From IMG/VR virus record IMGVR_UViG_3300026519_000025, positions 1 through 40,409 of that record: a stretch of 40,409 nucleotides of DNA; one strand, written 5' to 3'. Within the stretch, counting starts at the first letter, position 1; every line of letters starts with the position of its first letter. This DNA comes from a virus. Both the position numbers and the translations under genes were made by a program. The notes beneath the pieces are model-generated. The model was not told the origin of the DNA. It ran no database searches and was given only the letters and a program-made list of their open reading frames with translations. Positions 6,413-33,932 of this stretch are shown here, piece by piece.

Positions 6413-6586
6413 GTGAATAAGAAGCAAAAATGGCCAGAACCAACGGTCGAGGAGCCCTCAATGGAGGATCTCGAGGAGATGATCTTCGATGGAGACTGCT
6501 GGGCAACAGACGGCTGCCCAATAGAGCCAGACGGAACTTGCCCTCACGGTCATCCCAGTTGGCTACTTCGCCTGGGATTAATCTAA
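6413..6586 (+). CDS. Small conserved protein with DGC...CPHGHPSWLLRLGLI motif
   Basis: A 57-residue protein with a GTG start at 6413 preceded by AAAGGAGG. The C-terminal half carries DGDCWATDGCPIEPDGTCPH followed by GHPSWLLRLGLI. I recognise this pattern from small proteins of phages and bacteria (DGC.VEPDG.C.HGHPSWLL). The three Cys and two His could bind a metal. Its biochemical function is not known to me. Confidence 0.7.
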   Translation: MNKKQKWPEPTVEEPSMEDLEEMIFDGDCWATDGCPIEPDGTCPHGHPSWLLRLGLI

Positions 6587-6596
6587 CATAATAAAT

Positions 6597-6607
6597 TTTG
6601 AACAAAG
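6597..6607 (+). repeat. TTTGAACAAAG motif, copy 2
   Basis: The core TTTGAACAAAG is preceded by ATAAAT and followed by AGG. It lies just upstream of the ribosome site of the 6626 gene, between two genes. Confidence 0.65.
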
Positions 6608-6625
6608 AGGAAAACGGAGGAAACA

Positions 6626-7343: not shown

Positions 7344-7515
7344 TGAGGAGTGGGAGGCTAGGCAACTAGCCTCCCTTCTCCAACGTGGTGACTGGCATAA
7401 CCACTGGCGGCTGCAGAACTACATCTACCGCCGCAATATATGGGAGAGCCAGCTAGAGAAAGATCCAACTTACGGAACGCTGTGCCCAGAAGCGGACTTT
7501 TTACCAAAGGCATGA
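7321..7515 (+). CDS. Small hypothetical protein, 64 residues, Trp-rich
   Basis: ATG 7321 lies inside the previous gene and has a weak ribosome site. The product (MINIAHIDEEWEARQLASLL, then QRGDWHNHWRLQNYIYRRN) is rich in Trp and Arg. Its stop overlaps ATG 7512 of the next frame as ATGA. No family is recognised. Confidence 0.6.
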   Translation: MINIAHIDEEWEARQLASLLQRGDWHNHWRLQNYIYRRNIWESQLEKDPTYGTLCPEADFLPKA

Positions 7516-7535
7516 TAGATAGAGGACTTAAATAT

Positions 7536-8570
7536 ATGGAGAAAAAGAAGATAACAGCAATAAAGGGGTTTGACCAGAACTGGAAGTGTCGAGATTTCCA
7601 GTTCGAGGTCGGGAAGACTTACAAACACAATAGGCCAATAAGAGTCTGCGATTCTGGGTTTCATGCCGTAGAGTATCCATTGGATGTCTTCATACACTAC
7701 GATCCTGCTAACAGTAAGTATGCGATCGTTGAACTAAGCGGAGAGATCGATACACAAGAACAAGACTCAAAAATCGCAGCGTCACGCATTGCAATAAAAG
7801 AAGAGATAGACATTTATGGAATTGCAAAGCGCGCCGTAGATTGGATCATATCAAAAGCAACGCGCGTGGAATCTGCCACAGAGACCCGGAGTGTCGCGAT
7901 CAATACTGAATACCAAAACGCCGCGACAAATATCGGAAAACATAGCGCTGCAATCAGTACCAAAGACCGAAGCGCCGCAACTAACACAGGGACCCGGAGC
8001 GTTGCGGCTAATACTGGAGATTGGAGCACAGCGGCCAATACGGAATACAGGAGCATCGCGGCCAATACTGGGGACTGGAGCGCTGCGATCAATACCGGAC
8101 CTCAAAGCGTTGCAAGTAGTACTGGGGTCGAAAGCGCTGCAGTTAATGCTGGGAACCATAGTGTCGCGGTCAATATCGGATACCGAAGCGCTTCGATCAA
8201 TACAGGGTACCAAAGCATAGCAATCAATACCGGAGATGAGAGTGCCGCAACTAATAGCGGGGGCTGGAGCGTCGCGACCAATACCGGATGCAGGAGCACT
8301 GCGACCAATACCGGAGACAAGAGCGCCTCAGTCAATACCGGAGACGAGAGCGTTGCAGAAGTATCAGGAAAAGGATCTGTTGCCCTAAATGTCGGATATC
8401 AAGGAAAGGCAAAAGCTTCTAAAGGCTGCGCAATTGTCTTGTGTTACTACGATAACAATGGAGACCTGATCCATATCAGGGCCAGTAAAGTAGGAGAGAA
8501 CGGCATAAAACCGGATACATGCTATTGGTTAAACTCAAAAGGAGAGTTTGTGGAAGCCAATGATGATTAA
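7536..8570 (+). CDS. DUF7666-type protein with nonapeptide-repeat beta-solenoid
   Basis: A 344-residue protein from ATG 7536, which has AGAGGA upstream. ATG 7512, coupled to the previous stop, would add 8 residues. Residues about 5-115 match what I recall of the DUF7666 domain: KGFDQNWKCRDFQFEVGKTY...DSGFHAVEYPLDVFIHY...VELSGEID. Residues 123-293 are 19 perfect-length nine-residue repeats of consensus NTGxxSxAx, which should form a beta-roll or solenoid. A short globular tail (CAIVLCYYDNNGDLIHIRAS...) follows. The biochemical role of DUF7666 is unknown to me; the repeat part may be a binding surface. Confidence 0.8.
   Translation: MEKKKITAIKGFDQNWKCRDFQFEVGKTYKHNRPIRVCDSGFHAVEYPLDVFIHYDPANSKYAIVELSGEIDTQEQDSKIAASRIAIKEEIDIYGIAKRAVDWIISKATRVESATETRSVAINTEYQNAATNIGKHSAAISTKDRSAATNTGTRSVAANTGDWSTAANTEYRSIAANTGDWSAAINTGPQSVASSTGVESAAVNAGNHSVAVNIGYRSASINTGYQSIAINTGDESAATNSGGWSVATNTGCRSTATNTGDKSASVNTGDESVAEVSGKGSVALNVGYQGKAKASKGCAIVLCYYDNNGDLIHIRASKVGENGIKPDTCYWLNSKGEFVEANDD
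7902..8414 (+). repeat. 27-base coding tandem repeat, 19 units
   Basis: Nineteen 27-base units encode nine-residue repeats such as NTGDWSAAI, NTGYQSIAI and NTGDESAAT. The unit length is constant but the nucleotides are diverged, so this is an old, selected protein repeat rather than a recent expansion. Confidence 0.85.
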
Positions 8571-9364: not shown

Positions 9365-9387
9365 GTGTTTGCACTAACCGAACAATT

Positions 9388-9398
9388 TTTGAACAAAG
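9388..9398 (+). repeat. TTTGAACAAAG motif, copy 3
   Basis: The core TTTGAACAAAG is preceded by AACAATT and followed by AGGAAAACA-ATG. The 3' end of the motif thus merges with the ribosome site of the 9408 gene, about 17 bases after the predicted start of transcription. Confidence 0.65.
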
Positions 9399-9407
9399 AG
9401 GAAAACA

Positions 9408-13292: not shown

Positions 13293-13562
13293 ATGAGCAA
13301 GAACAGAAAGTGGTGGCAACCGAAGAACGAAAAGCCGGGCTTCCTCGGTGTGCTTCACGCAGTAAAGAACATACCAGTTGAAGCGCTGCGACGCCTCCTA
13401 AACAGCATCGGCGCAAATCCAATGATCGGCGGAAAGGATCTTGCACGAAGAATCATTGACATGTTAGTGATTCTTCTCGGAATCCTATCCCTCGTGTGGT
13501 TTATTAGCATGCTCTCCGGAAATCCGATTGGAGGGCCTGTGCGGGTTTGGCTAACAGAATAA
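13293..13562 (+). CDS. Small membrane protein, 89 residues
   Basis: The ATG at 13293 is preceded by GGAGACAAAGCT. The N-terminal 55 residues are soluble and basic. A single membrane segment lies at about residues 57-75 (MLVILLGILSLVWFISMLSG). It is a predicted tail-anchored-like single-span protein. No family is recognised. Motif copy 4 starts just after its stop. Confidence 0.65.
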   Translation: MSKNRKWWQPKNEKPGFLGVLHAVKNIPVEALRRLLNSIGANPMIGGKDLARRIIDMLVILLGILSLVWFISMLSGNPIGGPVRVWLTE

Positions 13563-13564
13563 TT

Positions 13565-13575
13565 TTTGAACAAAG
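13565..13575 (+). repeat. TTTGAACAAAG motif, copy 4
   Basis: The core TTTGAACAAAG is preceded by AATT and followed by AGGAGGAC. Unlike copies 2 and 3, no start codon follows at ribosome-site distance; the next gene begins about 78 bases later. The motif is therefore not simply part of a ribosome site. Confidence 0.65.
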
Positions 13576-13596
13576 AGGAGGACAAGCAGCCACAAC

Positions 13597-14340: not shown

Positions 14341-14563
14341 ACAACTAACAGACATCATAAAGCCAATGAGCGAGTGCTCATTTGAGGAAGTTCTCGAACG
14401 TGTCAGGCAGATGCGACGACAAAAGTACATTGCAAAGCCAGCCACAAAGCGCCGTGTTGCAAAAAGCAACAAGCGGAAGTTCGATCTAGAAAAGAAAAAA
14501 ATGCAACAACTTGCTAGCATGCTAACCAAAGAAGAGCTCGACAAACTGATGGGGGAACTCTAA
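14333..14563 (+). CDS. Small basic protein, 76 residues
   Basis: ATG 14333 has AAGGAAG upstream. The product (MSKQLTDIIKPMSECSFEEV...) has a very basic middle (KPATKRRVAKSNKRKF) and a helical end (QQLASMLTKEELDKLMGEL). Its stop TAA overlaps the next ATG by one base. It may bind nucleic acid; no family is recognised. Confidence 0.65.
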   Translation: MSKQLTDIIKPMSECSFEEVLERVRQMRRQKYIAKPATKRRVAKSNKRKFDLEKKKMQQLASMLTKEELDKLMGEL

Positions 14564-15927
14564 TGGCATTGAAACAAGTCAAGCTAACAGACATAACCGT
14601 TTCTGAGCGGTTTCGGAAAGACCTAGGAAACATTGAAGACCTAATGGCCTCAATTGAAGAGAAGGGCATTCTGCAACCGGTGACTGTTGACCAAGACCTA
14701 AACCTTCTCGCCGGAGGCAGACGCTACGAGGCAGCGCGCCGATTGGGCCTTGAGAAAATCCCAGTCCTCGTGAGAAAGACAGAAGATGAACTCGACGCTC
14801 GTGAGGTTGAGCTTCTAGAGAATGTCATGCGAAAGGATATGACATGGAGCGAGAGGGCTCTCCTAGTAAAACGCATTGCAACACTGTACAAAGAAAAAAC
14901 AGGAACAGACTACGGAAAGCGCACAGCAATCGCTAAAATGCTAGACAAAAGCAAAGGCTGGATAACCAGGCAGCTACAGCTGGCTGATGCTCTTGAAGCT
15001 ATACCAGAACTAGCTGAGGAAAAAACTGAAGACGATGCCTTCAAGCAGCTTCAGCGTGCAGCTGAGGATATTGAAGTTGAACAACGTCGCGAGCAACATC
15101 GAGAGCAGATTGCTTCAAAGTTTGGCATCGACCTCTCAGATCTATCTGGTATCGATCCAGAACAGTTCCTCAACGATAGCGCAAGTGGTGAGCACGAGCG
15201 AACTGCCATTGACTGGCTAGCGATAGCAGAGGCGAACTACTATGTATGCGATGTGTTTGAGGGGCTTAAATCACTAGAGCCCGGAAGCTTCCAACTGCTG
15301 GAAGTTGACCCTCCCTACGGAATCGACCTGGCAACAGTTCGCCAAGAACGAAACGAACACGAACTGGATCGCTATAATGAAGTATCCAGCGATGAATATC
15401 CAGAGTTTCTCTCAAAGCTCTGCCAACTGTGCTACCGTGCTGCAGCAGAAAATAGTTGGATGATCTTCTGGTTCGGTCCAACTTGGCACTGCCAGGTTCG
15501 AGAAGCCATCTTGGCTGCCGGCTTCAAACTGGACGACATACCAGGTATCTGGGCTAAGCCCTCCGGGCAAACCAACCGCCCAGATCTATACCTCGCCAGA
15601 TCATACGAACCATTCTTAATAGCTCGCAAGGGCTCGCCGACAATTGTCAAGAAGGGGAGATCAAACATCTTCTCCTACCCAGTCGTACCACCGAGTGAGC
15701 GCTACCACTCAACTCAACGCCCCATTGATCTAATGGTTGACATACTTGAAACCTTCGGATACCCAGGCACTCAGGTGCTGATACCATTCCTTGGTAGTGG
15801 TGTAACACTACGGGCTTGCTATAAACTCGACATGATGGGAATTGGCTGCGACCTTGATCAACGAAATAAGGACCGATTCATGCTTCAAATCGAAAAAGAC
15901 ATATCGGAGGGACTTTATAATGAGTGA
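14563..15927 (+). CDS. ParB-like domain fused to DNA methyltransferase
   Basis: A 454-residue, two-domain protein. Residues 1-140 form a ParB/Srx-type N-terminal domain with GGRRYEAARR at 51-60 and the ELLENVMRKDMTWSE signature, followed by a helix-turn-helix region (KSKGWITRQLQLA). Residues about 225-454 form a SAM-dependent methyltransferase with DPPYGI at 249-254 and FLGSG at 409-413. Motif IV comes before motif I, as in the beta class of N6-adenine/N4-cytosine enzymes. Phage ParB-methyltransferase fusions are known. It probably methylates phage DNA against host restriction or marks it for replication control. Confidence 0.88.
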   Translation: MALKQVKLTDITVSERFRKDLGNIEDLMASIEEKGILQPVTVDQDLNLLAGGRRYEAARRLGLEKIPVLVRKTEDELDAREVELLENVMRKDMTWSERALLVKRIATLYKEKTGTDYGKRTAIAKMLDKSKGWITRQLQLADALEAIPELAEEKTEDDAFKQLQRAAEDIEVEQRREQHREQIASKFGIDLSDLSGIDPEQFLNDSASGEHERTAIDWLAIAEANYYVCDVFEGLKSLEPGSFQLLEVDPPYGIDLATVRQERNEHELDRYNEVSSDEYPEFLSKLCQLCYRAAAENSWMIFWFGPTWHCQVREAILAAGFKLDDIPGIWAKPSGQTNRPDLYLARSYEPFLIARKGSPTIVKKGRSNIFSYPVVPPSERYHSTQRPIDLMVDILETFGYPGTQVLIPFLGSGVTLRACYKLDMMGIGCDLDQRNKDRFMLQIEKDISEGLYNE

Positions 15928-16306
15928 ATTAAAAGTGGTAAAACCAATGATCTTCTTAGTTGGTGCCGCAGAAGGGCCTGACGACATTAGAAAGCAAAAC
16001 CTAACAAACCTACGCTTAACGTATGTAGCCTTAACAAGTGCGGATAACATAGTCCACTGTGAAATCCTCGTAGACGCCGCCGCACAGCGCCTTGGCGACT
16101 GGCGTGCACGGGCTGTAAAGAGCCGCTTCTACCTCGAGCGCTCCGACCTAGTCGTGGTGGTAGATACGCAGCAATCTCGCATGTCAGAGGAAGTGCAGCT
16201 CTGCGTACAATGGGCTGACAGTATGCGAAAGCCTGTTCTCTTACTTCCCCCATACACACAAGCAATTCCACCGGAGGACGATCATGTTTGGACTGGAGAA
16301 AACTAA
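15920..16306 (+). CDS. Hypothetical alpha/beta protein, possibly nucleoside deoxyribosyltransferase-like
   Basis: A 128-residue protein; ATG 15920 has GGAGGG upstream. The pattern is an N-terminal strand (MIFLVGAAEGPDDIR), a middle helix ending with SRFYLERSDLVVVVDTQQ, and a segment SEEVQLCVQWADSMRKPVLL. This broadly resembles DUF4406 and nucleoside 2-deoxyribosyltransferases, in which a Glu in S-x-x-x-E lies before a helix. The match is weak, and no catalytic residue can be assigned with certainty. It is coupled to the methyltransferase (8-base overlap) and the next gene. Confidence 0.6.
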   Translation: MSELKVVKPMIFLVGAAEGPDDIRKQNLTNLRLTYVALTSADNIVHCEILVDAAAQRLGDWRARAVKSRFYLERSDLVVVVDTQQSRMSEEVQLCVQWADSMRKPVLLLPPYTQAIPPEDDHVWTGEN

Positions 16307-17291
16307 AAAAACAGTAGGTCCAGTCGGACAGATTGATGCCAAGATAGCCCTTGTCGGCGAGGCTCCCGGTGTGTGGGAGCTGCGCGCTGGCAAGCCCTTC
16401 GTCGGACCGGCTGGAAGCATCCTAGACGCCTGCCTGCAAAACGCGGGAATAGTTCGTAGGGACTGCTATATAACCAACGTGATAAAAGAACACCCTCCAA
16501 AAAATAACATAACCCCCTGGTTCAACGATAGAACAGGGTTCACACAAAAGGGGCAGGAATATGTGGAGGCACTGCGAGAAGAGCTAGAAAAAACAAAAGC
16601 AAACGTGTTTGTAGCGCTAGGTAAGGTAGCAATGTGCGCACTAACTGGCCGTAAAGATATAATAACCCGCCGCGGCTATGTAATGGAATCCACCCTGTTG
16701 CCTAGACGTAAGGTCTTGCCAACAATTCATCCAAGTGCGTGCCTACGCGGTCAGTATGTGTATCGCTACTACATTGCATCCGACCTGAAGAAAGCGCTGG
16801 TCGAGAGCGACTTCCCAGAAATTCGCTACCCAGAGCGAACTCTCATTGCAGATCCAGGGATAACACTGCAACAAGCGCTGGAAAACCTTGACTTCATAGC
16901 TTCACACAAGCGTGTGGCGTTTGATATAGAAGTAATCGAATTCCAGGTCTCGTGCATATCATTTGCAACAAGCCCCGACTGGTCATTCTCACTCCCACTT
17001 CACAGGCGTTGGACTGAGGTTGAGGAAGCACAACTCTGGCAACGAATTGCTGCTATCCTAGAAGACCCGGAGATTGAGAAGATTGGCCAAAACAGCCTGG
17101 CATTCGACTGCTGGTTCCTCGCAACAACATGCGGCATTATAGTGCGAGGCACACACTTTGACACAATGATTGGGCATTCTATCATATACCCAGAAATGCA
17201 GAAGGGCCTAGGCTTCCTCGCTAGCATCTACACACACGAACGCTATTGGAAAGACATGGCAGACTTCAAGAGCATCAAGAAGGAGGACTAG
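16284..17291 (+). CDS. UDG-like domain fused to the first half of a polA 3'-5' exonuclease (interrupted polymerase gene, part 1)
   Basis: A 335-residue product. Residues 1-175 match family 4-like uracil-DNA glycosylases: GEAPG at 25-29, PFVGPAG at 38-44 and HPSA at 149-152. The Cys ligands of the iron-sulfur cluster are not evident (NVIKEHPPKN where family 4 has a Cys). Residues about 205-335 begin the 3'-5' exonuclease: Exo I Asp214-x-Glu216 (FDIEV) and Exo II Asn270...Asp275 (NSLAFD). Exo III is absent; it lies at the start of the 17700 product in the same frame. UDG-exo-pol is the layout I recall for SPO1-type phage polymerases. The TAG at 17289-17291 ends the frame prematurely. Confidence 0.88.
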   Translation: MFGLEKTKKTVGPVGQIDAKIALVGEAPGVWELRAGKPFVGPAGSILDACLQNAGIVRRDCYITNVIKEHPPKNNITPWFNDRTGFTQKGQEYVEALREELEKTKANVFVALGKVAMCALTGRKDIITRRGYVMESTLLPRRKVLPTIHPSACLRGQYVYRYYIASDLKKALVESDFPEIRYPERTLIADPGITLQQALENLDFIASHKRVAFDIEVIEFQVSCISFATSPDWSFSLPLHRRWTEVEEAQLWQRIAAILEDPEIEKIGQNSLAFDCWFLATTCGIIVRGTHFDTMIGHSIIYPEMQKGLGFLASIYTHERYWKDMADFKSIKKED

Positions 17292-17292
17292 C

Positions 17293-17556
17293 ATGCAATA
17301 CCAAGAAACGCACGGCAAGAGCTACGCTGTCAACTCAATCTGTCGCTTGTGCAGCAAGCCAATCGACCTACACCACACAATAGTACCACTGGTTGATACG
17401 TATGTACACTACAACTGTGCGGTGTTTAGCAAGTACGATAAACTAATAAACATCGCAGGCTCGCTGGTTGAGGCTATTGAACAGGGCGAGGATATTGACC
17501 TTGACGAGCTGAGAGAAGACTTATTGCTGGCCCTCGCAGCTATCGATGGCAACTAA
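17293..17556 (+). CDS. Zinc-binding ORF inside the polymerase interruption
   Basis: An 87-residue protein; ATG 17293 uses the GGAGG at the end of the preceding gene. It has CRLCSKPIDLHHTIVPLVDT followed by YVHYNC, that is, Cys-x2-Cys...His-His...His-x2-Cys, a metal-binding module that faintly resembles HNH or LIM-type fingers. An acidic helical tail follows. In some phages an ORF in a polymerase intron encodes an HNH homing endonuclease, but this one lacks a clear HNH catalytic Asn-His arrangement. It may be a remnant or an unrelated small regulatory protein. Confidence 0.65.
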   Translation: MQYQETHGKSYAVNSICRLCSKPIDLHHTIVPLVDTYVHYNCAVFSKYDKLINIAGSLVEAIEQGEDIDLDELREDLLLALAAIDGN

Positions 17557-17567
17557 CGAAATGTCGG

Positions 17568-17620
17568 GCGATTTGGGCGCGCGTTTCCCCAACCATATGG
17601 GGTACCATTACCCAAATCGC
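17568..17620 (+). ncRNA. Nested stable RNA hairpin in the polymerase interruption
   Basis: A perfect 10-bp outer stem, GCGATTTGGG / CCCAAATCGC (17568-17577 and 17611-17620), encloses a 5-bp hairpin CCCCA-ACCATA-TGGGG (17587-17602). A further GGCGG/CCGCC pairing is possible at about 17646-17672. No tested RNA family is recognised, and I see no group I P7 signature. It could be part of an intron, a regulatory element before the polymerase start, or an RNA gene. Confidence 0.5.
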
Positions 17621-17699
17621 AATCGTTGATCAGCGGGCGTGTATGGGCGGGAAAATGGCCATAAAAACCGCCGCAAAAACCAAAAATGAGGATACCAAC

Positions 17700-19202
17700 A
17701 TGGAACAAAAAACCCTAACATATAACGCTCTCGATAGTGCTATAACATTCGAGATCTTCCAAGCCTTCTGGCATGATCTTGAGGAACAAGGCTACAATGA
17801 TACATATAAACTAACAACAGACATAATCCCTCCCCTAACATTTATGATGCACAGGGGTATATGTGTTAACAGAGATGCACTCGAACAGGCTCGCAGGGAT
17901 GTTGAGAGAAAAATTGAGGAAAAGCAGCAGGAACTAAATGAAGCAGCTGGCCGGTATTTAAATCCACTAAGCTCGAAGGACTGTCAAGCTTACTTCTATA
18001 TAGAACTCGGCATTAAACCATTCACAAAAACAAACGCAAAGGGTCAGCAAACAATAACCTGCGACGACAAGGCAATGCAACGGCTAGCCGTCGGCACTGC
18101 TAACCGCCCGCCAATCCCAGCCGCGAAGCTTGTGCAAGAACTGCGAGCGTTGCACAAACTGAAGGGAACATACCTAGACATCGAATTTGACAGGGATGGC
18201 CGCTTTCGTTGTTCTGTAAATCCTCGCGGCACTGTTACTGGACGCATAAGCACATCGAAAACAATCTACGGCACTGGCATGAACATGCAGAACTTGCCAT
18301 TGGAGTTCAAGCGATTCCTAATCGCTGACCCAGGCTTTGTTATGATCGAGGTTGACAAGGCGGGAGCAGAGTGGGTTGTGGTTGCGTATCTAAGCGGCGA
18401 CCCTAACATGATTCGTATTGTTGAGGAAGGCCTCGACCCACACGCCGCAACGGCAAATCTAATGTTCAACGTGCCTATAGAGCTGATTCAAGAGGAAAAT
18501 AAACTAATCGGCCACGAGACCGATCCCGGGCGGATTGCAAAGCTTCGGGAGAAGCTTCCCGGGCTTGAGGTTGCACGCTTCCTGCCACGAAACATGAGCT
18601 TGCGGCAAGCCGGCAAGAAATCAAATCACGGACTAAACTATGGCGAAGGCCCGCGAATGTTCGCGCTGCAAAACGAAATACCTGAGTTCGAGGCTAAGCG
18701 GTTAGTCGATCTATACCATGCAGCCTACCCAAACATTCGTAACGTATGGCACCGCCGCATTCAAAATGAGATGCGCTCTGGACGCGTGTTGATTAACTTC
18801 TTTGGACGAAAGCGTAGGTTTCTTGACAAACTAGGCGATCAACTGTTCAAGGCCGCCTACGCCCACGAGCCGCAGTCAACTGTGAGTGATAACCTAAACG
18901 TTGGCATGGTTCATATCTACAATGACCGATCACCTGAGATGCTAGACCTTGAACTGCTTGCCCAGGTTCATGACTCACTATTATCTCAGTATCCACTGGC
19001 AGACATCGGCCGCCTTGCAGCGTGCATTGCTAAGCAGTGCAAGCATATGAACATACCTATAACAATACGCGGTCGAACATTTACAATTAAGACGGATGTG
19101 AAGGTGGGCCTAAACTGGCATGACATGCATGAGCTTCCGAGAACCACAAATGTTGGAGAGCTCAAGCGTGCTTTACAGAAGCTGCCGGAGATTGCGCGGT
19201 GA
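17700..19202 (+). CDS. DNA polymerase family A, C-terminal exo III and polymerase domains (part 2)
   Basis: A 500-residue product from ATG 17700 with GAGGAT upstream; ATG 17643 adds a low-complexity leader. It begins with Exo III (Tyr8...Asp12, YNALD). TGRIS is at about 180-184. Motif A carries Asp219 and Glu224 (VDKAGAEW). Motif B is Arg302...Lys306...His310-Gly with NYG (RQAGKKSNHGLNYG). Motif C is His424-Asp425-Ser426 (VHDSL). The position equivalent to E. coli Phe762 is His, and the usual Glu of motif C is Ser. It is the replicative polymerase but lacks Exo I and II, which are in the 16284 product. Confidence 0.92.
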   Translation: MEQKTLTYNALDSAITFEIFQAFWHDLEEQGYNDTYKLTTDIIPPLTFMMHRGICVNRDALEQARRDVERKIEEKQQELNEAAGRYLNPLSSKDCQAYFYIELGIKPFTKTNAKGQQTITCDDKAMQRLAVGTANRPPIPAAKLVQELRALHKLKGTYLDIEFDRDGRFRCSVNPRGTVTGRISTSKTIYGTGMNMQNLPLEFKRFLIADPGFVMIEVDKAGAEWVVVAYLSGDPNMIRIVEEGLDPHAATANLMFNVPIELIQEENKLIGHETDPGRIAKLREKLPGLEVARFLPRNMSLRQAGKKSNHGLNYGEGPRMFALQNEIPEFEAKRLVDLYHAAYPNIRNVWHRRIQNEMRSGRVLINFFGRKRRFLDKLGDQLFKAAYAHEPQSTVSDNLNVGMVHIYNDRSPEMLDLELLAQVHDSLLSQYPLADIGRLAACIAKQCKHMNIPITIRGRTFTIKTDVKVGLNWHDMHELPRTTNVGELKRALQKLPEIAR

Positions 19203-20395
19203 CTAGGAAGCTAACCGATTGGATAAATGCGTATAAAGAATACACAAAGAACACAGAACCACCAACTTCATACCACGTATGGACCGGTATGGCGTTAGTT
19301 GCTGGGGCTCTGCAAAGGAAGGTCTTCCTAAAGTGGGGCTTTGAGACAATCTATCCAAACCTCTACGTTGTGCTGGTCGGACCAAGCGGTAAGTGTCGCA
19401 AAGGCACAGCAATGGGGATTGGGCGAGATATATTCAAGCAGATTGGTCTACCACTCATAAGCGAGTCAATAACTAGGGAGGGACTCATTAGAAGAATGAA
19501 AAACTCAGTAGCAACATACCAACTACCTGATGGATCAATAAAGTTCCACTGCTCAGTTATGTGTATGAGCCCAGAGCTAACGGTGTTTCTTCGAAAAGGT
19601 GACATCGGCTTTTTAGCAGACCTAACAGACTGGTATGACTCAAATGATGAGTGGACATACGAAACAAAAAATGCAGGAACTGACCAAATTGAGGGGATGT
19701 GCTTCACACTGTTAGGAGCAACTGCGGCTGATTGGCTACAGAGTATCCTGCCCTCAGAAGCAATTGGCGGGGGGTTCACGTCTCGGATACTCTTTATCGT
19801 GGAAGAAAACAAGCGGCAAACAGTGACCCTCCCAACCATGACAAAAGAAGAACTTCACCTCCGCCAGCTGCTAATCCACGACCTAGAGCAGATAAGCATA
19901 ATGACTGGCCCATTTGAGCTCGATGATGCTGCAATGAAGGCCTACGATCATTGGTATACAGTGCAAGAGGCTAAAATAAAAAGCAACACCCCACCAATAT
20001 CTGATCCGAAGTTTGCTGGTTATTGTGATAGAAGGGCAACGCATGTACGCAAGCTGTCAATAATAATCTCAGCTAGCCGCCGAGACAGCCGCATTATAAC
20101 TGAAGATGACTTCAATACAGCGGTTCGTATGCTAGTGCAGGCGGAGCAGAAAATGCCCGGCGTGTTCTCTGCCGTTGGGGACTCCCCATACAGCGCGTTG
20201 TTGGATAAAGTTCTTAAGTTCCTCCAAGCCGTCGGCTCGTGCTCAAGAGCAGACCTAATGACTCGATTCTACCGGGACATGGACACACGCGCACTTGAGG
20301 CGGTGGAGACTATCCTCTCGCATATGAAGGTTATAAGAATCGAGGTAAACCCAGAAACAAGGGAGATCTATTACCACTTTACGGGGAAGCGCTAA
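19199..20395 (+). CDS. DUF3987-like replicative helicase/primase-associated ATPase
   Basis: A 398-residue protein with a GTG start overlapping the polymerase stop (GTGA). It has a P-loop-like GPSGKCRKGT at 61-70, preceded by hydrophobic strand YVVLV, then SVMCMSPELTVFLRKGDIGF, then YETKNAG and MCFTLLGATAADWLQSILP. This matches the DUF3987 family, whose members are helicase-like ATPases encoded with phage primases and polymerases. The C-terminal 80 residues look like a winged helix (LLDKVLKFLQAVGSCSRADL). It probably unwinds DNA at the fork. It ends 17 bases inside the convergent late gene. Confidence 0.8.
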   Translation: MTRKLTDWINAYKEYTKNTEPPTSYHVWTGMALVAGALQRKVFLKWGFETIYPNLYVVLVGPSGKCRKGTAMGIGRDIFKQIGLPLISESITREGLIRRMKNSVATYQLPDGSIKFHCSVMCMSPELTVFLRKGDIGFLADLTDWYDSNDEWTYETKNAGTDQIEGMCFTLLGATAADWLQSILPSEAIGGGFTSRILFIVEENKRQTVTLPTMTKEELHLRQLLIHDLEQISIMTGPFELDDAAMKAYDHWYTVQEAKIKSNTPPISDPKFAGYCDRRATHVRKLSIIISASRRDSRIITEDDFNTAVRMLVQAEQKMPGVFSAVGDSPYSALLDKVLKFLQAVGSCSRADLMTRFYRDMDTRALEAVETILSHMKVIRIEVNPETREIYYHFTGKR

Positions 20396-26099: not shown

Positions 26100-26123
26100 G
26101 CCACACCCCCTAACGGGTTAAAT

Positions 26124-26134
26124 TTTGAACAAAG
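26124..26134 (+). repeat. TTTGAACAAAG motif, copy 5
   Basis: The core TTTGAACAAAG is read on the plus strand, preceded by AAT and followed by TTACC, in the gap between two minus-strand genes. It is thus antisense to local transcription. It ends one base before the stop codon of the 27901 gene. Confidence 0.6.
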
Positions 26135-27901
26135 TTACCATTCACTCTCAAGCTTATATTCAAACAACAACCAGCCCAGCTGAAAGCCTGAACCAACTCC
26201 ACGCAATCGAAATCTGATTGAATCTCCAACTAGCTGAGACCACTTCCGTACTTGTTGCATACCTGTCGTGCTGATAGCCGACCCAAGAACAGTCCATGTA
26301 ACTCCCCGATCTGTGCTACACTCCAGGATAACACCAGAGCCAGCCAATAGTAAGTCAACGCTATCTAGTCTAACCTTATAGTGACTATTCTCAAAGTCCT
26401 TTGTCTGCATCTCATACACGATAGCAACACCAGCATCTGTATTGGCTGAATAGTCATACTCATAAACAACCCTGTTGCTGGGATCACACAAGAGTGTGGT
26501 TGGTGAATTACTCTGCAACAGGGTTGAATCCCAAGAGTAGTTCTGATCATCCCAAGTCCCAACTAGCCCATCCCACGTTTTATCACTTATTCTCTGATAG
26601 AATCCAAAGCCTATTATATCATGAGACACCTCACGAAACCACAGAGAATCCTCTGACAAACTATACCTGAGGATATAGCGAAGCTGCCCAGACAATCCTC
26701 CAGCATATACAACCCAAATCTCGTCTAGCTCCTCTATATAGATGGCGAATATCCTATGCTTAAACGCTGGATTTATATCGCTGGTTGTTGTGAACATCTT
26801 GTTAATAAACTTATCTGTTAGCGGCTCGAAAGAGAAGTCGCCACGATACTTATAAACATTCGCATTACCGATGAATATATGGTAGTCACCCAAGTCTATA
26901 ACAGCATCATGCGAGACTGGACCCTCACCAGCAACTGTGTCCGTAAAGTTAAACAATCTGTCAGCAGAGCCTACATACTCAATCCTAACAAGTGAGCGCT
27001 CTTTGTACACTATAAAATAAGGTCCAAGCTGTGCGCCAGTTACTATGTAGTCTTCACTGGATAGCAAATCTTGGTAACCAGCATTTCCTGTGGACCAATT
27101 AGTTGGATTGGCCGTGTCCGACCAGCGAACACGCTGGGGATAGTCAGTACCGCCCTCAGATGTTCCCAGCAACAAAACGTGGTTGTTGAAAATGCCTAGC
27201 GCCTTACACACAGTGTTACCACCACTGGGTAAGTTTGGTATATCTATACACGACACTCCATCAAAGCGCTTAGGCTTATCAACCCCATTTGTAAACAGCA
27301 TCCAGTTGTTGGGTGTGTAGACAACTATACTGATCTGCTTATCTAGTGATCCAGACAAGGCTACCGATTTAACAACGGCGGCACCAACTGGAACAGACCT
27401 GCCAACTGGGATTGCATTAGCTATCGTTAGAACACCCGCAGCAACAGCAGTGACTTGTGTCTGATGTTGGGTTCCGTTGTCTAGTGCTATCCCGATATAA
27501 TCGTTGACAGAAAAGCCAGCCTCCGACGCAACATCAATGCTAGTAGATCCAGCAGACTCTCCTACACTGGCAGTTGTACTCGTCCCATCGCTTACATATT
27601 GCCACTCACCAGCGTTCCATACATAGAATGTAGAATCCGTAATGAGGGTTAGCTGACTGGTGTTATCTGTTTTGTAGAACTGAAATGCAGCTCTAGGTGC
27701 GCCACGAACCTGCTGACCAAACGTTGTGTAGCCGGTGTCTATCTGCACAAACCCCTGTCGATATTGCAGATTCTTCACATACGATAGCTCATTGTCTGCT
27801 ATATCAAATGGCGGCTTGTTATCATTGAGCCCACCAGAGAACACTGCAATACGCTTCTGCTGCCATTGCTCCAGGTTTGCACTCTCGTCTGGTCTAGCCA
27901 T
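26135..27901 (-). CDS. Tail hub/nozzle-type structural protein, beta-rich
   Basis: A 588-residue protein; the ATG overlaps the preceding stop (TAATG). The N-terminus (RIAVFSGGLNDNKPPFDIAD) and the beta-strand-rich body (FGQQVRGAPRAAFQFYKTDN..., VYTPNNWMLFTNGVDKPKRF, YRGDFSFEPLTDKFINKMFT) recall large podoviral tail hub or nozzle proteins with a beta-propeller-like fold. No Cys or enzyme motifs. It lies between a fibre-tip-domain gene and the internal virion protein genes. The exact tail part is inferred. Confidence 0.65.
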   Translation of the reverse strand: MARPDESANLEQWQQKRIAVFSGGLNDNKPPFDIADNELSYVKNLQYRQGFVQIDTGYTTFGQQVRGAPRAAFQFYKTDNTSQLTLITDSTFYVWNAGEWQYVSDGTSTTASVGESAGSTSIDVASEAGFSVNDYIGIALDNGTQHQTQVTAVAAGVLTIANAIPVGRSVPVGAAVVKSVALSGSLDKQISIVVYTPNNWMLFTNGVDKPKRFDGVSCIDIPNLPSGGNTVCKALGIFNNHVLLLGTSEGGTDYPQRVRWSDTANPTNWSTGNAGYQDLLSSEDYIVTGAQLGPYFIVYKERSLVRIEYVGSADRLFNFTDTVAGEGPVSHDAVIDLGDYHIFIGNANVYKYRGDFSFEPLTDKFINKMFTTTSDINPAFKHRIFAIYIEELDEIWVVYAGGLSGQLRYILRYSLSEDSLWFREVSHDIIGFGFYQRISDKTWDGLVGTWDDQNYSWDSTLLQSNSPTTLLCDPSNRVVYEYDYSANTDAGVAIVYEMQTKDFENSHYKVRLDSVDLLLAGSGVILECSTDRGVTWTVLGSAISTTGMQQVRKWSQLVGDSIRFRLRGVGSGFQLGWLLFEYKLESEW

Positions 27902-33921: not shown

Positions 33922-33932
33922 CTTTGTTCAAA
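33922..33932 (-). repeat. TTTGAACAAAG motif, copy 6
   Basis: The core TTTGAACAAAG is read on the minus strand, preceded by ATAAAT and followed by GGGGGC. It merges with the ribosome site of the 33913 gene, in the same relation as copies 2 and 3 on the plus strand. Confidence 0.65.

Follow-up and report, generated by a model that had tools for sequence, protein, structure and literature searches.

Dividing an enzyme between separate genes is a known kind of phage gene organization, and the polymerase described here belongs to this class of genes-in-pieces. In the OM43 phages MEP401 and MEP402 the family A DNA polymerase is divided between two ORFs that enclose a small unknown ORF, an arrangement kept in most related genomes, and the authors left the choice between an intron and a split gene undecided (PMC10580990). 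In the Aeromonas phages 25 and 44RR, gene 43 (a family B polymerase) occurs as 43A and 43B, which are separated by an endonuclease gene in phage 25 and by an untranslated spacer in 44RR, and the 43A and 43B products of phage 25 co-purify and are active (PMC2988022). The same source describes NrdA of phage Aeh1, which is split by the HNH homing endonuclease gene mobE with the enzyme staying functional, and T-even phages in which the start codon of mobE and the stop codon before it overlap as UAAUGA (PMC2988022).

The locus examined here lies in the IMG/VR virus record IMGVR_UViG_3300026519_000025, the whole 40,409 bases of which were analysed (hereafter the window), and consists of a SPO1-type family A DNA polymerase encoded as two cistrons, N and C. 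It resembles MEP401 and MEP402 in having a family A polymerase in two ORFs with a small ORF between, but the break in those phages falls within the polymerase domain (N- versus C-terminal parts of PF00476), whereas here it passes through the exonuclease site (PMC10580990). Gene 43 of Aeromonas phages 25 and 44RR is likewise a two-part polymerase, but of family B and in few phages, and no swapping set of small genes comparable to that reported below is described for it (PMC2988022). Aeh1 NrdA is a different enzyme in which the endonuclease itself marks the break, whereas a recognised HNH gene was found at the break in only 2 of our 29 contigs (PMC2988022). The unsplit SPO1-type polymerases (OP947158, Mel-JY34 and the L036 clade) share domain order, motifs and gene neighbourhood with the window, and differ from it in their one continuous frame. 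Our search of the open-access literature returned no description of the split in this clade.

Both cistrons are on the plus strand. The N subunit (335 aa; 16284-17291; assigned by Pfam, AF2 and profile) comprises a family 4-like uracil-DNA glycosylase (UDG) domain at residues 14-156 (16323-16751; Pfam UDG E 3.5e-22, with structure match) and a 3'-5' exonuclease domain (DNA_pol_A_exo1 E 6e-8) that runs past Exo II. As the initial annotation had stated, this ORF carries Exo I (Asp214-Ile-Glu216; 16923-16931) and Exo II (Asn270 to Asp275; 17091-17108) and then stops, the TAG at 17289-17291 directly following the residues KKED. Also as stated there, the second ORF is in the same frame and opens at Exo III: the C subunit (500 aa; 17700-19202) consists of the Exo III helix (Tyr8-Asn-Ala-Leu-Asp12; 17721-17735) and a full family A polymerase domain (Pfam DNA_pol_A E 1e-44). 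UDG-like, exonuclease and polymerase domains are thus present in the SPO1-type order by Pfam, PHROG 17 and structures. Profile positions 198-298 of the N subunit align to Klenow chain 17-125, and Tyr8 and Asp12 of the C subunit fall on Klenow Tyr497 and Asp501 in the established Klenow numbering. AF2 models of each subunit alone were confident: N gave a pLDDT of 90 and a pTM of 0.84, with values below 50 only at the last 6 residues, while C gave a pLDDT of 89.7 with the chain opening directly with the Exo III helix. In Foldseek the N model matched UDG structures and the C model KlenTaq/Klenow (E 1e-23 to 1e-20). A primase/helicase-like gene (DUF3987; 19199-20395, plus strand; PHROG 14296 DNA primase E 8e-55) overlaps the C stop, and the same gene order after the polymerase is found in OP947158 and Mel-JY34.

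Other elements of the window were recorded alongside the polymerase. Upstream of it, 14563-15927 encodes a ParB-type N-terminal domain fused to an N6/N4 DNA methyltransferase, which is kept in relatives, and 7440-8570 encodes a protein of 376 aa that contains a series of 9-residue repeats (27-nt units of xxSxAxNTG type; PHROG 4433 / 27197). An intergenic repeat, CTAAC-N8-ATTTTGAACAAAG, lies mostly just 5' of ORFs (2488-2516, 6580-6608, 9371-9399, 13548-13576, 26107-26135, and on the minus strand near 33931) and looks like a phage-specific promoter.

Relatives were gathered from IMG/VR and GTDB genomes. The N part alone, used as query against viral contigs, gave zero matches, whereas an alignment query did retrieve relatives; the genome-collection search gave one MAG contig only, and the split clade is known from metagenomic contigs alone. 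We found 28 further distinct contigs broken at the same place within a few residues (29 with the window). In these contigs N typically ends in ..YWKDxxxFxxIK[EDG][EDN][SDA], the tail varying in length by some residues in a few of them (e.g. L018), and C begins M...[FL]xYxALD; the C subunits of L037, L038, L039 and L045 were sequenced in part only. The two ORFs jointly match one protein in about 20 unsplit relatives, with a seam that loses no residue, and the alignment to uninterrupted relatives proposed in the initial annotation places the N tail and C head at the same 27-residue spacing as in unsplit OP947158. A recent disruption, pseudogene or assembly error might have been suspected in a single metagenome-derived virus record, and a sequencing error had been named as a possible source of the TAG. 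However, the same break recurs in the 28 other contigs, and dN/dS in pairs with measurable dS is 0.035-0.072 on both N and C, which is strong purifying selection on both sides of the junction, so that the chance of such an accident is practically negligible.

The distance from N stop to C start varied from -4 to 952 nt across the split contigs. Four of them (L029, L030, L031 and L033) have no gap, N and C either overlapping (TAATG, GTGA) or being separated by 5 nt, and these TAATG junctions resemble the UAAUGA overlap at T-even mobE (PMC2988022). All other split contigs carry 164-952 nt of unrelated, swapping small genes between N and C. This bears directly on whether the roughly 405-nt interval of the window is a self-splicing intron of group I, group II or another type, the first of three readings offered by the initial annotation. 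In favour of it, group I introns are known from SPO1-type phage polA genes, and the interval, whose length is divisible by 3, would join at a natural seam. The divisibility is chance: among 25 relatives whose gap exceeds 20 nt the frame is kept in 6, versus one third expected. The suggested covariance search found nothing: no Rfam match appeared in 17200-17760 even at E 10, nor at gathering score in 13 relatives, and no conserved catalytic RNA core of a group I or II intron was seen in the window or in those 13. Furthermore, the gap contents are unrelated among contigs, C has a start codon and Shine-Dalgarno of its own, and the gapless relatives, with no more than 5 nt between cistrons, still have a stop and a restart and therefore cannot be explained by an intron. 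We regard an intron as extremely unlikely.

The similar sequences flanking the interval, AAGAAGGAGGAC and AAAAATGAGGAT, had been taken for a possible duplication but are two ribosome-binding sites instead. The former is the Shine-Dalgarno site of an ORF within the gap (ATG 17293), AAGGAGGA (17280-17287, plus strand) lying inside the last N codons that encode KKED; the latter is that of the C gene, with GAGGA at 17688-17692 (plus strand), 7 nt 5' of ATG 17700. The gap ORF (17293-17556, plus strand, in another frame than the polymerase ORFs) encodes 87 aa with a CxxC...HH...HYNC pattern that is possibly zinc-binding. It had no Pfam match, no HNH match, a best PHROG E of 0.011 and zero tblastn matches among phages or viral contigs. 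Neither this ORF nor the 143 non-coding nt that follow it (17557-17699, plus strand) had been remarked on in the initial annotation. The non-coding stretch holds a 61-nt hairpin with a 10-bp stem, 17568-17577 pairing with 17611-17620 (GCGATTTGGG/CCCAAATCGC), which is more stable than shuffled sequence (z = -3.3) and is a possible processing or attenuation signal; such a spacer before the C gene differs from the mostly coding gaps of relatives. A conserved RNA element over the entire 17557-17699 was considered and set aside, the stretch as a whole being unremarkable (z = -0.87), with no Rfam match and no relatives for covariation. A second of the original readings, a small mobile insertion with target duplication, likewise did not hold for this window, where no significant repeat of the N-gene tail turned up within the gap (17/36; shuffled 95% limit 20) and the supposed duplication is the pair of ribosome-binding sites.

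In the split contigs generally, gaps, where present, are mostly coding. The first ORF usually begins no more than 3 nt from the N stop, and an AAGGA/AGGGA-type Shine-Dalgarno lies within the last N codons in 21 of the 29 N genes. A small 'WYY..GPF..CPTCED' protein is the cargo in about 15 contigs and a second small protein family in 8. L023 carries a phrog_15166 protein and L046 a look-alike (judged by eye), Cys-rich proteins occupy the gaps of L026 and L045, and singleton cargo also occurs, the window's own 87-aa ORF being one example. HNH endonucleases of two unrelated types are found in the gaps of L019 (PHROG 3377 E 6e-31) and L062 (Pfam HNH_3 E 1e-5). Close pairs illustrate the turnover: L020 and L023 share 95% identity until 4 nt short of the N stop, so that the swap has an exact left border there, are unrelated over the next 300 and 420 nt or so, and then return to 95% identity, while L046 differs from L052 by an extra 182-aa gene placed exactly at the N stop. 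Cargo must have been gained and lost repeatedly, since gapless contigs occur at scattered positions within the split clade.

The tail of the N gene recurs in L019, where the HNH ORF (L019:2087-2709) closes with SVKFNDIKENS; this repeat of the tail matches at 26/36 nt, more than in any of 300 shuffles, and L019 is the only contig that has one. We suggest that this may be the trace of an endonuclease cassette whose insertion close to the 3' terminus of N brought a replacement end with it. Insertion of a homing endonuclease is a plausible cause of the original fission, and one that we would place somewhat below even chances.

Conservation across the junction bears on what the two halves do. Without exception the N subunits (28/28) have the Asp/Glu of Exo I and the Asn/Asp of Exo II. 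The Exo III Tyr/Asp are invariant in 23/23 C subunits, where they are the sole invariant columns among the first 38 residues. Each half thus retains residues that serve no purpose unless the other half is present, and the best reading is therefore a two-subunit polymerase whose exonuclease site is shared between chains. Two polypeptides most likely make up the proofreading site; association of N with C is inferred from this co-conservation, and expression of both cistrons and exonuclease activity are presumed with it. Alternatively the halves might act apart, C as a proofreading-deficient polymerase and N as a separate UDG/nuclease, unjoined. That N and C each fold confidently alone in AF2 would suit such independence, as would the UDG motif 2 His, kept in just 20/28 N subunits, which indicates that parts of N can vary. 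Against it, the Exo III residues have no role in polymerisation and yet are all that is held invariant at the start of C, the Exo I and II residues of N are equally fixed, and the split clade is nested in a family that has both parts as one protein. We consider separate action unlikely.

It could also be imagined that N and C are fused as protein in vivo by programmed frameshifting, ribosome hopping or protein trans-splicing. Ribosome hopping over 50 nt is known from T4 gene 60, phage MIJ3 PolB provides an example of a split intein polymerase, and in the gapless relatives stop and start overlap in different frames, where a frameshift could join them. Yet gaps reach 952 nt without a common flanking signal, the cistrons have ribosome-binding sites of their own, and no intein motifs were found at the N ends or the C start: in the window N ends in KKED and C starts MEQKTLTYNALD, with nothing past polymerase sequence and hence no split-intein parts. 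Fusion at the protein level is, in our view, highly improbable.

In a tree of N plus C all split rows formed one clade (SH-aLRT 98 with 26 rows, 100 with 24 rows). Its sister clade (14 sampled rows, Desulfofustis phage OP947158 among them) is unsplit: a single frame runs through ...YYKDEGKKWFKLGGSDDDFWIYNAKD... at the corresponding place. Because there is a single split clade with an unsplit sister, the split arose once in this group and was kept. The third of the original readings, a fixed gene split giving a two-subunit polymerase, is the only one supported, by the 29 contigs, the tree and the selection on both halves. The same linker is also broken in Caulobacter phage Kuura and in contig L093, which branch elsewhere and whose gap contents differ too. 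A placement of Kuura inside the split clade was rejected (AU test p 0.00017; p 0.009 with a second Kuura relative), with its long branch a reason for caution, and the Kuura lineage appears to have split at this linker independently. The Kuura-type gap of L093 (L093:2882-3934) contains an ORF that by eye resembles RNase H and is not in Kuura itself.

Further breaks were seen in distant relatives: before motif A in Vibrio phage VS-ABTNL-3 (L015:5138-6991) and in L066:4976-6629, and after Exo III in MW202554 (L010:1727-4364), where the gap ORF is by eye like an NrdR zinc ribbon. The small ORFs in these three gaps differ from one another. A frame break a short way past Exo III is also seen in L084:4001-6357, a relative belonging to the unsplit clade (HSPs 23-403 and 414-820 lie in different frames); it may be due to a sequencing error or represent an additional split. 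Lastly, the C subunit of L044 (L044:5651-8111) is 820 aa and contains an apparent intein in motif B (GKK/CMPGDTEVLTPSGW ... VTGN/SNHGLNY), which would place a second kind of mobile element in the same polymerase at another site.

Taken together, we think it very probable that the locus reflects an inherited fission of the polymerase gene into N and C, which reassemble as a two-subunit proofreading polymerase, with the junction serving as a cargo site. An ancestral single UDG-exonuclease-polymerase gene of SPO1 type would have broken in the Exo II-Exo III linker, and a large phage clade would have inherited the split from the ancestor in which it was fixed. One message would then yield N (UDG with Exo I/II) and C (Exo III with polymerase) through separate ribosome-binding sites or translational coupling. 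The two would reassemble non-covalently, and we infer that docking of the C subunit's Exo III helix on N would be needed to complete the exonuclease site. From then on the stop/start junction would have acted like an ordinary intergenic site, gaining, exchanging and losing small genes, HNH endonucleases among them; the window's own cargo is the 87-aa ORF and the hairpin-bearing spacer. Although speculative, and in our estimation rather doubtful, the split might even be functional and not merely tolerated: C alone would be non-proofreading, docking of N would turn on proofreading and uracil sensing, and some gap proteins ('WYY..GPF..CPTCED') would regulate assembly.

What is new here is that an ancient clade-wide break passes through the active site of the exonuclease, in a clade that has gapless members and an unsplit sister, with what seems an independent repeat and with replacement of cargo; gapless relatives, an unsplit sister clade and cargo turnover are not reported for MEP401/MEP402 in the available portion of that work (PMC10580990). 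As a comparative case the split clade is clear: an essential replication enzyme has become permanently two-part by way of its own proofreading active site, at a linker broken at least twice, with the junction of the split clade then used as a cargo site. It may offer an answer for split phage polymerases that have been left as a 'possible intron', such as those of the OM43 phages, though these are broken elsewhere. It also makes testable the ideas that two polypeptides can together form a 3'-5' exonuclease in trans, and that splitting lets a phage tune its proofreading.
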